A stretch of DNA of 64,000 nucleotides, from assembly GCF_030067705.1 (NCBI RefSeq), contig NZ_JASJEX010000001.1:372001-436000 (forward strand), written 5' to 3'. Below the pieces are notes generated by a model that saw only the letters and a list, made by a program, of their open reading frames with translations, searched no databases and was not told where the DNA came from. A program made the translations under genes and the position numbers. This stretch comes from Kribbibacterium absianum (GTDB lineage Bacteria; Actinomycetota; Coriobacteriia; Coriobacteriales; Atopobiaceae). This document shows, one piece after another, positions 2,722 to 59,281 of this stretch; position 1 is the first letter of the stretch, and each line of letters begins with the position of its first letter.

Positions 2722-3909
2722 ATGACTGACAAGAGCCAGAACCCGGATCTCCAAGACCCCGGGAAACTCACCCAGGAGACCGTCGACCACGCGCAGCGGC
2801 TGCACGAGGCCGAGACGGGCGCCGACGCCAACTGGGACACGATGGCCCGGGACGACGCCTCGCGCGACGAGAGCATCGAGCCCGCGACCGTGATTGACGG
2901 CACTCCGGTGGGCGAGGGGCCGGCCGGGCGCCGTCCCACCAACGCCGAGCTTGAGCTTGAGTCCCAGCGCCTCGAGCACACGGAGGTCAAGCGCATCTCC
3001 TACGCCGGCCTCATCGCGCGCCGGTTCTTCCGCCAGAAGAGCGCCGTCGCTGGGCTCACCATCTTGGCCGTGCTGGCGCTCCTTGCCATCTTCGGGCCGA
3101 TGATCAGCCCGTACGACTACACGGACCCGGACTTCGCGGCCCTCTCCGTGGCGCCGAGCGCCGAGCACTGGTTCGGCACCGACTCCGGCGGCCTCGACCT
3201 CTTCGCCTGTGTGGTCCACGGCCTCGGCCGCTCGTTGGTGATCGGCATCTCCTATGCCCTCATCACCACGGTGCTCGCCGCCATCATCGGCACGGCCATC
3301 GCCTATGCGCGCGGCATCTGGGAGAAGATCGGCATGTGGTGCCTCGACATGCTGCTCGTGATCCCGTCCTTCCTTCTTGTGGCCATGATCGTGCGCGCCA
3401 CGAGCGGCGGCACCGGGTGGCTCATGCTGATCTTTGGGCTCTCGGCCTTCGGCTGGATCGGGTACGCCCGTACGTTGCGCACGATGGCCCTGTCGCTCCG
3501 CGAGCGGGACTACGTCAAGGCGGCCAAGTACATGGGCGTTTCGCCGTTCACGATCATCGTGCGGCACCTGATCCCCAACCTCGGGTCCATCCTCATCATC
3601 GACACGGTGCTCGGCGTCATCAGCGGCATCAACTCCGAGACGGCCTACAGCTTCCTCGGCCTCGGCATCAAGGTGCCGGACACCTCGCTCGGCTACATCC
3701 TGAGCCAGGGCTCGAGCGCCATGCTCACCGCGCCGTGGGTGGTGCTCATCCCGTCCATCGTCCTGATCGTCCTGTGCGTCTCCATGCAGCTCATCGGCGA
3801 CGGCCTCCGCGACGCCTTCGACCCCTACTCACGTGCCGCCGGCAACGTGGAGGAGGAGGCCGAGGACGCCACCCCCGGTCCCGAGAAGCTCGCCGAGCAC
3901 GATATCTAG
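2722..3909 (+). CDS. oppC: Oligopeptide ABC transporter permease, OppC type (system 1)
   Basis: A 395-residue partner permease, 11 bases after the first. The first hundred or so residues are charged and soluble, longer than usual for OppC, then membrane spans begin at KSAVAGLTILAVLALLAIFG. The OppC hallmark GTDSGGLDLF precedes the transmembrane core, and an EAA loop (DYVKAAKYMGVSPFTIIVRH) lies near residues 255-275. It ends with GDGLRDAFDPYS plus a 25-residue acidic tail. The order and spacing indicate one transcript with its neighbours. The long N-terminal cytoplasmic extension also occurs in OppC of system 2, so it may be a lineage trait. Confidence 0.9.
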   Translation: MTDKSQNPDLQDPGKLTQETVDHAQRLHEAETGADANWDTMARDDASRDESIEPATVIDGTPVGEGPAGRRPTNAELELESQRLEHTEVKRISYAGLIARRFFRQKSAVAGLTILAVLALLAIFGPMISPYDYTDPDFAALSVAPSAEHWFGTDSGGLDLFACVVHGLGRSLVIGISYALITTVLAAIIGTAIAYARGIWEKIGMWCLDMLLVIPSFLLVAMIVRATSGGTGWLMLIFGLSAFGWIGYARTLRTMALSLRERDYVKAAKYMGVSPFTIIVRHLIPNLGSILIIDTVLGVISGINSETAYSFLGLGIKVPDTSLGYILSQGSSAMLTAPWVVLIPSIVLIVLCVSMQLIGDGLRDAFDPYSRAAGNVEEEAEDATPGPEKLAEHDI

Positions 3910-3918
3910 GAGCGTTGC

Positions 3919-5949
3919 ATGTCTTCGAACACCCAGAACACTGAGGCCGCGCTCACGGTGCCTGTGGACGATGTCCTGCGCTACGAGCTGCTCGAGTCGA
4001 ACGGCCCCAAGAACGCGCCCACCGGCGACCCGGTGATGTCGGTGCGCGACCTCAACGTCTCGTTCAACACCGAGGCGGGCACCGTGCATGCGGTGCGCGG
4101 CGTGAACTTCGACCTGTGGGGCGGCCGCACCCTCGGTATCGTCGGCGAGTCGGGCTCCGGCAAGTCCGTCACCGCGCTGTCCCTGATCGGGCTGCTCGAC
4201 GACAACGCCCACGTGAAAGGCTCCATCAAGCTCCGGGGCACAGAGCTGATCGGCCTCACCGACGAGGAGATGAGCCAGTACCGCGGCGCGAACATCTCGA
4301 TGATCTTCCAGGACCCGCTCTCGGCGCTGACCCCGATGTTCTCGATCGGCGACCAGTTGGCGGAGGCCCTCAAGATCCACGACCCCGAGATGTCCAAGGC
4401 CGACGTCCGCGCCCGGTGCATCGAGCTCCTCGAGCTGGTCGGCATCCCGGAGGCCGAGGACCGTCTCGACTCCTACCCCCACGAGTTCTCCGGCGGCATG
4501 CGCCAGCGCGTGGTCATCGCCATCGCGATCGCGAACAACCCCGACATCATCATCGCCGACGAGCCCACGACCGCTCTGGACGTGACCATCCAGGCGCAGA
4601 TCCTCGACCTCCTCAAGGTGGCCCAGAAGGAGACCGGCGCCGCCGTCGTGCTCATCACCCACGACCTCGGCGTCGTGGCCGGCATCGCCGACGACATCAT
4701 GGTCATGTACGCCGGCCGCGCGGTGGAGCGCGCGAGCGTCGACACCCTGTTCGCGCGCCCGGGCCAGCCCTACACGATGGGCCTCTTCGCCGCGGTGCCC
4801 AAGCCGCACATGCCGAGCAACACGCGCCTCGTGCCCATCAAGGGCAACCCGCCCTCGCTGGCCGCCATTCCGCCGGGATGCCCCTTCTCGCCCCGCTGCC
4901 CGATCGCGGGTCCCGAGTGCTTCAAGACCGAGCCGCACCTGGAGGCGCTCGACCCGGCGGAGGGGCACCTCGTCTCCTGCCTCAAGATGCAGCAGATCCG
5001 CGACCAGCACCTCACCTACAAAGAGGTGTATCCGGACCTCGAGCCGCTGACGCCCAAGTGGGCCGAGGTGCCGCGCGACGAGCGCCCGGTGGTGCTCGAG
5101 CTCAAGGACGTCACGAAGGTCTTCGAGGTGCAGTCCAAGGGCCTCATCCGGCGCACCAAGGGCATCGTCACCGCGATGGACAAGGTGTCGTTCCAGATCC
5201 ACGAGGGCGAGACGCTGGCCCTGGTGGGGGAGTCCGGCTCCGGCAAGTCCACGACGCTCATGGAGATCATGGACCTGGCGGTGCCCAAGGAGGGCACCAT
5301 CACCGTGCTCGGCAAGGACACCAGGGATCTCAAGAGCGCGCGAGAGCGCCGCGAGCTGCGGCGCGACCTCCAGGTGATCTTCCAGGACCCGATGAGCTCG
5401 CTCGACCCCCGCATGCCCATCTACGACGTGCTCGCCGAGCCCCTCAGGGCGCAGCACTGGGACAAGAACAAGATCAACCGCCGCATCGGCGAGCTCATGG
5501 GCCTCGTGGGCATCAACCCGGACTATGTGGACCGCTTCCCGTCGCAGTTCTCGGGCGGCCAGCGCCAGCGCATCGCCATCGCGCGCTCGCTCGCGACGAA
5601 CCCCAAGCTGCTGCTGCTCGACGAGCCCATCGCGTCCCTCGACGTCTCCATCCAGGCGGGCATCATCAACCTGCTGGAGGACCTGCAGACCCAGCTCAAG
5701 ATCTCGTACCTCTTCGTGGCCCACGACCTGGCCGTGATCCGGCACATCTCCGACACGGTGGCGGTGATGCACCTGGGCAAGATCGTGGAGTACGGCGAGA
5801 CCGAGGAGGTCTTCAACAACCCGCAGGACCCCTACACCAAGGCGCTCCTCTCGGCCATCCCGATCCCGGACCCGCCCGTGGAGCGGACGCGCCTGCGCCT
5901 CGTGTACAAGGACGGCGAGCTGGTGCCGGCGAACGAGGTGCACGTCTAG
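3919..5949 (+). CDS. Fused dual ATPase of oligopeptide ABC transporter (OppD-OppF)
   Basis: A 676-residue protein with two complete ABC cassettes in one chain. The first has Walker A GESGSGKS (about 76-83), signature FSGGMRQR (about 190) and [18 protein letters not shown] oligopeptide C-terminal domain follows near residue 320, as in OppD. The second has GESGSGKS near 437, [13 protein letters not shown] near 544 and [12 protein letters not shown]. It would supply both ATPase sites for the permease pair just upstream. The usual CxxRCP tail of OppF is absent from the second half, which ends [18 protein letters not shown]. System 2 encodes the same functions as two genes. Confidence 0.92.
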
Positions 5950-56500: not shown

Positions 56501-57934
56501 ATGTTCAACAGCCTGTCCGACCGCCTGCAGGGCACCTTCGACAAGCTCCGCGGCAAGGGTCGCCTCACGGAGGACGACATCAACGTCGCGATGCGCGAGA
56601 TCCGCCTGGCGCTGCTCGAGGCGGACGTCAACTTCAAGGTGGTGAAGCGCTTCGTCGCGAGCTGCAAGGAGCGCTGCATGACGAGCGAGGTGCTCGACTC
56701 GCTGACGCCCTCGCAGAACGTCGTGCGCATCGTGCTCGAGGAGCTCACGGAGCTGCTCGGGGGCACGGAGTCCAAGCTCACGATGGCGCAGAACCGCACG
56801 CCCAACGTGATCATGCTCGTCGGCCTTCAGGGCTCCGGCAAGACCACGGCCTGCGTCAAGCTGGCGTACCTGCTGCGGAAGCAGGGGCGCAACCCGCTGC
56901 TCGCGGCTTGCGACGTGTACCGTCCGGCGGCGGCCGACCAGCTGGAGACGCTCGGCAAGGAGATCGGCGTGCCGGTGTTCCGCGGCGACGGGCAGCACCC
57001 GGTGCAGATCGCGAAGGACTCCGTGCAAGAGGCCGTCGACAAACTGTGCGACGTCGTGATCGTGGACACCGCCGGCCGCCTGCAGATCGACGAGTTCATG
57101 ATGCAGGAGGCCGTGGACATCAAGAGCGCCGTGCGCCCGGACCAGGTGCTCATGGTGGTCGACGCGATGACCGGCCAGGACATCGTGAACGTGGTCACGG
57201 AGTTCGCCGAGCGCACGGACTTCGACGGCGTGATCATGTCCAAGCTGGACGGCGACGCCCGAGGCGGCGGCGCGCTCAGCGTGCGCGAGGTCACCGGCAA
57301 GCCCATCAAGTTCGTGTCCATGGGCGAGAAGCCCAGCTCGCTCGAGGTGTTCCACCCGGACCGCATGGCGCGGCGCATCCTCGGCATGGGCGACATGTAC
57401 GGCATCATCGACGCGGCGCAGGAGATGGCCGACGAGGAGCAGGCGCGCAAGGCCGAGAAGATGCTCATGCAGGGCCTCACGATGGACGACATGCTCGACC
57501 AGCTCCAGTCCATCCGCAAGATGGGCGGCCTCGGCAAGATCATCTCTATGCTGCCGGGCGGCGACAAGCTTCTGGGCGAGACGCCCGAGGCGGCCGACGA
57601 GAAACAGCTCGTGCGCATCGAGGCGATGATCCGGTCCATGACGCAGGAGGAGCGCGACAAGCCGAAGATCATCAACGGCATGCGGCGCCAGCGTATCGCA
57701 AGGGGCTCCGGGCACACGGTGCAGGAGGTGAACGCCCTCATCAAACAGTGGGACGAGATGAACAAGATGATGGGCAAGATGCGCTCGATGATGAACTCCG
57801 GGAACATGAACCCCAAGCAGATGAAGCGCATGATGAACCAGATGGCGGGTGGCCTGCCGGGGCAGGGCGGCCAGCCGCAGATGGCAGGGAACCGAGCGCA
57901 GCGCCGCGCCGCCGCGCGGAAGAAGAACCGGTAG
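56501..57934 (+). CDS. ffh: Signal recognition particle protein Ffh
   Basis: A 477-residue SRP GTPase. NG domains show GLQGSGKTTACVKLA (about 108), CDVYRPAAADQL, DTAGRLQIDEFMM and SKLDGDARGGGALS. The C-terminal M domain is methionine-rich (MNKMMGKMRSMMNSGNMNPK), suited to binding signal peptides. ATG 56501 has AGAGAGGA about 7 bases upstream. It ends the smc-ftsY-ffh group; the 4.5S RNA partner is not in the window. Confidence 0.96.
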   Translation: MFNSLSDRLQGTFDKLRGKGRLTEDDINVAMREIRLALLEADVNFKVVKRFVASCKERCMTSEVLDSLTPSQNVVRIVLEELTELLGGTESKLTMAQNRTPNVIMLVGLQGSGKTTACVKLAYLLRKQGRNPLLAACDVYRPAAADQLETLGKEIGVPVFRGDGQHPVQIAKDSVQEAVDKLCDVVIVDTAGRLQIDEFMMQEAVDIKSAVRPDQVLMVVDAMTGQDIVNVVTEFAERTDFDGVIMSKLDGDARGGGALSVREVTGKPIKFVSMGEKPSSLEVFHPDRMARRILGMGDMYGIIDAAQEMADEEQARKAEKMLMQGLTMDDMLDQLQSIRKMGGLGKIISMLPGGDKLLGETPEAADEKQLVRIEAMIRSMTQEERDKPKIINGMRRQRIARGSGHTVQEVNALIKQWDEMNKMMGKMRSMMNSGNMNPKQMKRMMNQMAGGLPGQGGQPQMAGNRAQRRAAARKKNR

Positions 57935-57959: not shown

Positions 57960-58559
57960 CGGTCGGTCGGCTTGGCGCCGGGAAACCTCGCATTACGCGC
58001 GCAGGATGCGAGAGAATCGGGCGCCGCGCGCCTGGCCGCCGGGAACCCTCGCATCACGCGCGCACAATGCGTGCCTATCGGGCGTTGAGCGGCTCTCTGC
58101 CGAGAAGCCCCACATTGCGCATGCACGATGCGAGGGAATCGGGCACAAGAGGCAGTGGCGCCGCGAAACCGCGCATCGCGCCCGCAGGATGCGCGTTAAT
58201 CCGGCGCGAGAGGCCGCTGTGCCGGAGAACGTCGCAACGTGCGCGCAGGATGCAGGGGAATCGGGCGCGACGGGGTGGCGCGTCCGGAAATCCCGCATTC
58301 CGCACGCGGGACAGGCGTCTATCTGGCACGACAGGCTACGGCGTCGGAGAATGCCGCATGACGCGCGCAGGATGCGCGGAAGTCGGGCGTTGTGCGCCTG
58401 GGCGCCGCGAAACCTCGCATTACGCGCGTAGGATGCGTCTCTATCGGGCGGTCAGCACCTTTCTGCCGAGAAGACCGGCATTGTGCGCGCAGGATGCCAG
58501 GTAATCTGCCGGGGCGCCCGAATCCGTCGTATTGTGCCTGCAGAATGCATACCTACTGG
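57960..58559. repeat. Tandem array of ten degenerate 61-bp units
   Basis: Nine units of exactly 61 bp start at 57960, 58021, 58082, 58143, 58204, 58265, 58326, 58387 and 58448. A tenth, 51-bp unit ends at 58559. Most end in AATCGG or close variants. Seven of ten have exact GCAT at unit positions 31-34 and nine of ten have ATGC at 47-50, giving a GCAT-N12-ATGC dyad; CGCAGGATGC is exact in five. Units 8 and 9 resemble units 2 and 3, suggesting a block duplication. Because 61 is not a multiple of three, no frame yields a repeating peptide, and it is judged noncoding. The 664-base gap between ffh and the next gene is almost entirely this array. Confidence 0.85.
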
Positions 58560-58598
58560 ACGGACGGCAGCGGTGACCACGCCTGGGAGGGGAGGGCT

Positions 58599-59096
58599 GT
58601 GAGGGTTCTCATTGACGCCGACGCGTGTCCCGTCACACGCGAGACGCTGGAGATTTGCCGCGACCGAGGAGTGCCCGCGGCGCTCTACGGCAACGGCACG
58701 CAGAACCTGGAGCGGCATGTGCGCCCAGGCGACCCTCGCTCGTCGAAGGACGGCAAACGCGGGTTCTGGATCGAGACCGTGACGTGCCAGGGCGGCGCAG
58801 ACAGCGCAGACTTTGCGATCGTGGAAGACCTCGAACCGGGCGACATCGTGGTGACGCAGGACATAGGGCTCGCTGCGATGGTGCTCGGCAGGGAAGCGCG
58901 GGCCATCGGCGTGCGCGGCCGCGTGTACGACAGGGCAACCATCGATATGCAGCTTTTCATCCGTCACGAGGAGAAGAAGGCCCGGCGCAACGGTGAGCGT
59001 ACCGGGGGTCCGAACAAGTTCTCCAGCGATGATCGCCGACGGTTCCGCAGTGGACTAGAGAGACTCATTGCGGAGGGTCGCCGACAAGCACTCTGA
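58599..59096 (+). CDS. YaiI/YqxD family (DUF188) protein
   Basis: A 165-residue protein of the YaiI/DUF188 family, PIN-like by fold prediction in the literature; function unknown. It begins VRVLIDADACPVTRETLEI, then DSADFAIVEDLEPGDIVVTQDIGLAAMVL and GRVYDRATIDMQLFIRH. The acidic residues suggest a metal site. GTG 58599 is chosen because GGGAGGGG precedes it; the frame upstream runs through the repeat array and lacks homology. Confidence 0.88.
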   Translation: MRVLIDADACPVTRETLEICRDRGVPAALYGNGTQNLERHVRPGDPRSSKDGKRGFWIETVTCQGGADSADFAIVEDLEPGDIVVTQDIGLAAMVLGREARAIGVRGRVYDRATIDMQLFIRHEEKKARRNGERTGGPNKFSSDDRRRFRSGLERLIAEGRRQAL

Positions 59097-59206: not shown

Positions 59207-59281
59207 GGGCGTTTAGCTCAGGGGGAGAGCGCTTCCCTGACACGGAAGAGGTCACAAGTTCAAATCTTGTAACGCCCACCA
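59207..59281 (+). tRNA. tRNA-Val (GAC)
   Basis: 75 bases with acceptor GGGCGTT/AACGCCC, D-arm GCTCAGGGGGAGAGC, T-loop GTTCAAATC and CCA. The anticodon loop CTGACAC gives GAC. Its 3' end is duplicated 1.7 kb downstream, beyond hipBA. Confidence 0.95.

Follow-up and report, generated by a model that had tools for sequence, protein, structure and literature searches.

Tandem arrays of a two-fold-symmetric unit at six intergenic sites of Kribbibacterium absianum, candidate docking sites for a DNA-binding protein

Known tandem palindrome arrays include plasmid centromeres and scattered clusters of REPs. In actinobacteria, the mycobacterial interspersed repetitive units (MIRUs) are intergenic tandem repeats of ~50 to 100 bp found at scattered loci. 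The sopC site of the F plasmid contains twelve 43-bp repeats with ten 16-bp inverted repeats (PMC6238139). REPs are 20 to 40 bp long and usually present in more than 100 copies per genome, many of them as singles or dimers (PMC3733652; PMC2817692). Here we compare with these systems an array found downstream of ffh in K. absianum, within a stretch of 64,000 nucleotides (the window).

A degenerate tandem array between ffh and yaiI

A tandem repeat with a period of 61 bp between ffh and a yaiI-like gene was called by TRF and by a second repeat finder. The self-identity of this array (array A) was 0.60, 0.59, 0.58 and 0.57 at lags of 61, 122, 183 and 244, respectively. Dinucleotide shuffles (n = 1000) showed a mean lag-61 identity of 0.28 (SD 0.02), and across lags 20 to 199 their highest identity was 0.378. 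The degenerate array that an earlier note had described after ffh is therefore real, and its period lies above the shuffled-sequence level with which that note had proposed to compare it. The exact 61-bp spacing claimed for ten units holds for nine of them, but not for the tenth (Table 1). Six of the ten units had a GCAT-N12-ATGC dyad exact on both sides, and most of the remaining four came close to it, but the palindrome is larger than described, reaching ~46 bp with outer GCCCGA../..TCGGGC arms. The array was rightly read as noncoding by its period, 61 bp not being a multiple of three. A block duplication, suspected from the resemblance of units 8 and 9 to units 2 and 3, was also confirmed: units 7 to 9 matched units 1 to 3 at 78% over a 167-nt reference, and the highest self-identity of the array, 0.635, occurred at lag 366. 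Rfam gave no family match in array A, the sole match of the region being a tRNA at 59207, and a scan of the array A region for promoters and terminators found none.

Table 1. Features of the array A locus (window coordinates), and positions of the six arrays and the five Y1_Tnp genes in the K. absianum genome (contig coordinates). R1, unit profile.
Feature	Position	Strand	Remarks
ffh (SRP54 GTPase)	56501..57934	+	Ends the smc-ftsY-ffh run, upstream of array A; Pfam SRP54, E 1.1e-72; ORF list
Array A, ten palindromic units	57974..58564	.	Nine at exactly 61 bp, tenth at 51 bp
Array A unit 1 (core 57990-58009)	57974..58025	+	R1 46.3 bits, E 2.3e-13
Array A unit 2 (core 58051-58070)	58035..58086	+	R1 42.6 bits on - vs 37.2 on +, minus higher
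Array A unit 3	58096..58147	+	R1 34 bits
Array A unit 4	58157..58208	+	R1 40 bits
Array A unit 5	58218..58269	+	R1 42.5 bits
Array A unit 6	58279..58330	+	R1 32.8 bits; most diverged in the 61-bp series
Array A unit 7	58340..58391	+	R1 37.5 bits; opens the block resembling units 1-3
Array A unit 8	58401..58452	+	R1 37.7 bits
Array A unit 9	58462..58513	+	R1 35.4 bits; core is the exact consensus GCATTGTGCGCGCAGGATGC, pattern match with 0 mismatches
Array A unit 10	58513..58564	+	R1 24 bits; weakest; 51 bp after unit 9
yaiI-like DUF188 gene	58599..59096	+	Downstream of array A; GTG start inferred; Pfam PF02639, E 2.3e-34
Array A	C1:429.97-430.56 kb		Between ffh and yaiI, co-directional genes
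Array B	C1:478.09-478.27 kb		Between a LigB-like gene and a TAG-interrupted ORF, divergent
Array C	C1:479.59-480.13 kb		Between the TAG-interrupted ORF and an unclassified gene, convergent
Array D	C1:485.27-485.67 kb		Between aroC and pheA, co-directional genes
Array E	C4:246.84-247.27 kb		Between co-directional genes
Array F	C4:249.39-249.78 kb		Between co-directional genes
Y1_Tnp gene L214	C3:393.3 kb		
Y1_Tnp gene L215	C1:174.3 kb		
Y1_Tnp gene L216	C5:60.0 kb		
Y1_Tnp gene L217	C1:154.0 kb		
Y1_Tnp gene L218	C4:32.3 kb		

Six arrays in one genome

We searched the genome of K. absianum (2.18 Mb, seven contigs) using array A as the query and found further copies. A sequence-only profile of the unit (R1) revealed six intergenic arrays, A to F, of 3 to 10 units each and ~44 copies in total on two separate contigs, C1 and C4; of 1446 candidates in the initial pass, 150 were scored, and very weak single units could be missed at this depth. 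The same 150 scored candidates included no convincing single unit outside the six arrays, the best outside match having an E value of 0.17. The gene context varied, with four arrays between co-directional genes, one between divergent and one between convergent genes, and the orientation of the arrays relative to neighbouring transcription was not fixed. GC skew in 20 sampled stretches was too weak for placing the arrays relative to the origin or terminus.

Arrays E and F are direct duplicates with 76% identity over 370 bp (L009:1255-1622 and 3802-4163). They flank a CAP/ChW-domain gene; on their outer sides lie a gltD-like gene and a gene for an amino-acid ABC ATPase. The CAP/ChW surface-protein gene, lying between direct repeats, could be lost or duplicated by recombination. 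The ORF between arrays B and C (L042:1479-2342) had no Pfam or NCBIfam match and ends at a TAG beyond which reading seems to continue; it is possibly an interrupted gene. A 252-aa protein adjoining array C (L042:3149-3907) matched no Pfam or NCBIfam family either.

Among 397 Coriobacteriales genomes, in which the genus was represented by K. absianum only, seven others had an R1 match at E ≤ 0.001, each of them isolated, with no tandem array at any of these matches; the order-wide search used stricter filters, with which weak relatives could be lost. The best match outside K. absianum lay inside pyrF (genome G316). Within the family, searches by DNA similarity and by pattern yielded isolated matches only, and the inspected loci look coding and had no tandem array. 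The exact core was found in seven isolated matches among the contigs of 84,980 species and IMG/VR, in unrelated records, the named ones being proteobacteria, and no second unit lay beside any of the seven. Literature searches turned up no description of such a repeat in Coriobacteriia. The suggestion of a chromosomal repeat family special to this lineage thus holds, with six arrays in K. absianum and none in the 396 other Coriobacteriales genomes. The earlier note had also held that an array without periodic signal in related strains would be decayed chance repetition. The signal is indeed absent from the relatives, but array A is not a product of chance, because its unit recurs in five further arrays of the same genome.

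Array D offers a natural experiment, as an array within a conserved run of aromatic amino-acid genes. In the 21 relatives in which both genes could be placed, the gap between aroC and pheA was 7 to 279 bp (median of 39 bp), as opposed to 670 bp in K. absianum, where it contains array D. DNA has therefore been added inside a conserved gene run, and array D is a lineage-specific gain within aroA-aroC-pheA. As to array A, yaiI and ffh were not neighbours in the examined loci of relatives.

Symmetry, conservation and spacing of the unit

The unit consists of a two-fold-symmetric sequence of ~46 bp (GCCCGAtAAgCyCGCATynTGCGCGCAGGATGCG...) and a linker of 5 to 15 bp. Outer boxes (GCCCGAtA/TaTCGGGC) and inner boxes (GCAT/ATGC) surround the centre TGCGCGCA. 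We aligned 42 units from the arrays of K. absianum without gaps over 52 columns, excluding one slot of array F with a short deletion. The units were ~60% alike between arrays and departed from the consensus at 665 of 2184 positions, all by substitution and none by insertion or deletion. Pairing across the dyad was found in 63.6% of cells, compared to 34 to 44% with the partner slid, and column conservation was symmetric about the dyad (rho of 0.79 on information content). Fifteen columns were conserved at 90% or more, whereas 900 uniform-rate simulations along the units' own tree, run at three tree scales, never gave more than 10 such columns. The conservation is far more uneven than uniform-rate neutral drift, although context-dependent mutation rates, themselves symmetric in a palindrome, could account for part of the unevenness. 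The idea that spacing had been selected more than sequence is thus half right: the spacing is constrained, but specific symmetric positions are strongly conserved as well. Among the aligned units, G-to-C and C-to-G differences (209) outnumbered C-to-T plus G-to-A differences (151); this excess is unusual for plain mutational decay, and its source could be inversion of some units or selection on GC.

Similarity between left and right arms was not higher within units than across units (0.567 and 0.566, respectively; p = 0.44), as would follow from separate selection of each half-site. The covariation score over the 42 units was 0.170, identical to that of column shuffles, and 231 of 500 shuffles reached it. 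The absent covariation speaks against hairpins in RNA and against cruciforms. It is compatible with independent selection on each half-site, or with simple decay; a family in decay after a recent spread would likewise lack it.

The 37 intervals between units comprised 61 bp (20 cases), 51 bp (12 cases) and one each of 50, 62, 81, 82 and 93 bp. The classes 50/51, 61/62, 81/82 and 93 bp correspond to one helical phase: at a period of 10.35 bp the phase coherence R is 0.98, and a comparison of the four classes with randomly chosen ones gives p = 0.007. With few independent spacing events and a paralogous 81/82 pair, this helical phase-locking is suggestive rather than conclusive.

Possible functions and known systems

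The best reading, in which we place about even confidence, is that the arrays are multi-site docking arrays for a putative dimeric DNA-binding protein; of the options raised earlier, a multi-site binding platform is the one that the sequence supports best. Array A would be one of six DNA-level docking platforms, and each ~46-bp symmetric unit would be read by a putative dimeric or tetrameric protein made by this lineage. The three to ten sites of an array, held at one helical phase (51 + about 10.5k bp), would place bound dimers on the same face of the helix and allow their cooperative assembly into a local nucleoprotein complex. Such a complex might give the chromosome local structure, or act on the adjacent genes as an insulator or silencer, comparable to the action of SopB on sopC. 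We infer all three, the binding, its cooperativity and the role of the complex, from features of the DNA. The arrays also provide a concrete handle for fishing out the putative protein.

The main rival is a selfish or passive repeat family: a palindromic element would have reached a handful of intergenic sites, multiplied there into tandem copies through slippage or unequal crossing-over, and lost sequence identity since then for want of any function. This is possible, though we lean against it. Confinement to one genome in the order, the DNA that array D adds to a gap short in relatives, the E/F duplicates around the CAP/ChW gene, the block duplication within array A and the presence of five Y1/REP-transposase-like genes in the genome would all be consistent with such a history. 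However, uniform drift does not account for conservation so uneven and so symmetric, the 665 substitutions stand against zero indels with spacing changes that are only phase-preserving, the 150 of 1446 candidates scored held no convincing single copies outside the arrays, and the REP-transposase-like genes are accompanied by other palindromes. A function at the RNA level, in which a transcribed chain of hairpins would act as terminator, attenuator, mRNA stabiliser or regulatory RNA, appears unlikely. The units are palindromic, array A follows ffh, array D lies between aroC and pheA, and array A folds better than its shuffles (z of -6.4 on the plus and -4.1 on the minus strand), as would be expected of any palindrome-rich sequence. 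The 42 units, however, showed no covariation and RNAalifold gave no consensus pair. Furthermore, the minimum-energy fold of array A is not a row of ten hairpins, the array contains no terminator-like site, and the strand of the asymmetric unit agrees with transcription in array A but opposes it in D, E and F. The RNA made of ten hairpins proposed in the earlier note is thus disfavoured by arms without covariation and by an array orientation that is not fixed relative to adjacent genes.

Still less probable, in our view, is a recombination or insertion platform, in which the arrays would serve as repeated homology for gaining, losing or duplicating accessory genes. The direct repeats E and F around the CAP/ChW gene, arrays B and C around the interrupted ORF, and the separation of yaiI from ffh in the relatives' loci examined would agree with it, but homologous recombination would work poorly on units only ~60% alike between arrays, array D lies between genes kept in conserved order, and a Pfam scan of the neighbours found no recombinase. 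A decayed CRISPR array is hardly credible: the period alone fits, since 61 bp could be the sum of a 29-bp repeat and a 32-bp spacer, whereas other arrays run at 51 bp. We rejected this candidate because the whole 46 to 52 bp are common to the units, with linkers of 5 to 15 bp and no unique spacers of ~30 bp.

Sites resembling parS (TGTTTCACGTGAAACA with 1 to 2 mismatches) occur in this genome only at C2:191-195 kb and in none of the arrays. A Pfam scan found no parA or parB beside the arrays, with one neighbour and one interrupted ORF remaining without a family match. On both grounds, we rejected a ParB/parS centromere. The arrays resemble REPs and BIMEs in being extragenic, imperfect palindromes, which are sometimes clustered, and the genome has REP-transposase-like genes: in an NCBIfam scan of two of them, L214 and L218, both resembled REP-associated tyrosine transposases, with scores that did not reach the curated cut-off. 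However, the units here measure ~46 bp and occur in ~44 copies in arrays only, in contrast to the 20 to 40 bp, the usual copy number above 100 and the common singles or dimers of REPs, and the unit consensus has no terminal GTAG or CGTC tag. Four of the five Y1_Tnp loci carry their own flanking palindromes of 30 to 74 nt, unrelated to the array unit, and no array unit was found around any of the five genes; a REP family of these resident genes was rejected on this basis. The arrays share with MIRUs the form of intergenic tandem repeats at scattered loci of an actinobacterium. To our knowledge, two-fold symmetry combined with phase-locked spacing is not a feature of MIRUs.

The closest functional analogue would be the sopC/parS site of the F plasmid, bound by SopB/ParB, which likewise has about ten tandem units of 40 to 60 bp, each with an inverted repeat, and is read by a dimeric protein. 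However, sopC is one plasmid site, as opposed to six chromosomal arrays here, and the units here have diverged. Tentatively, and with more doubt than confidence, the arrays may belong to a previously undescribed chromosome-organising or gene-insulating system of one Coriobacteriales lineage, in which a putative dimeric protein would act on phase-locked palindrome arrays at six sites, distinct from ParB/parS and REP. The combination found here, of six arrays without convincing single copies, units phase-locked in spacing and arms that are symmetric but do not covary, fits neither plasmid centromeres nor REP clusters.
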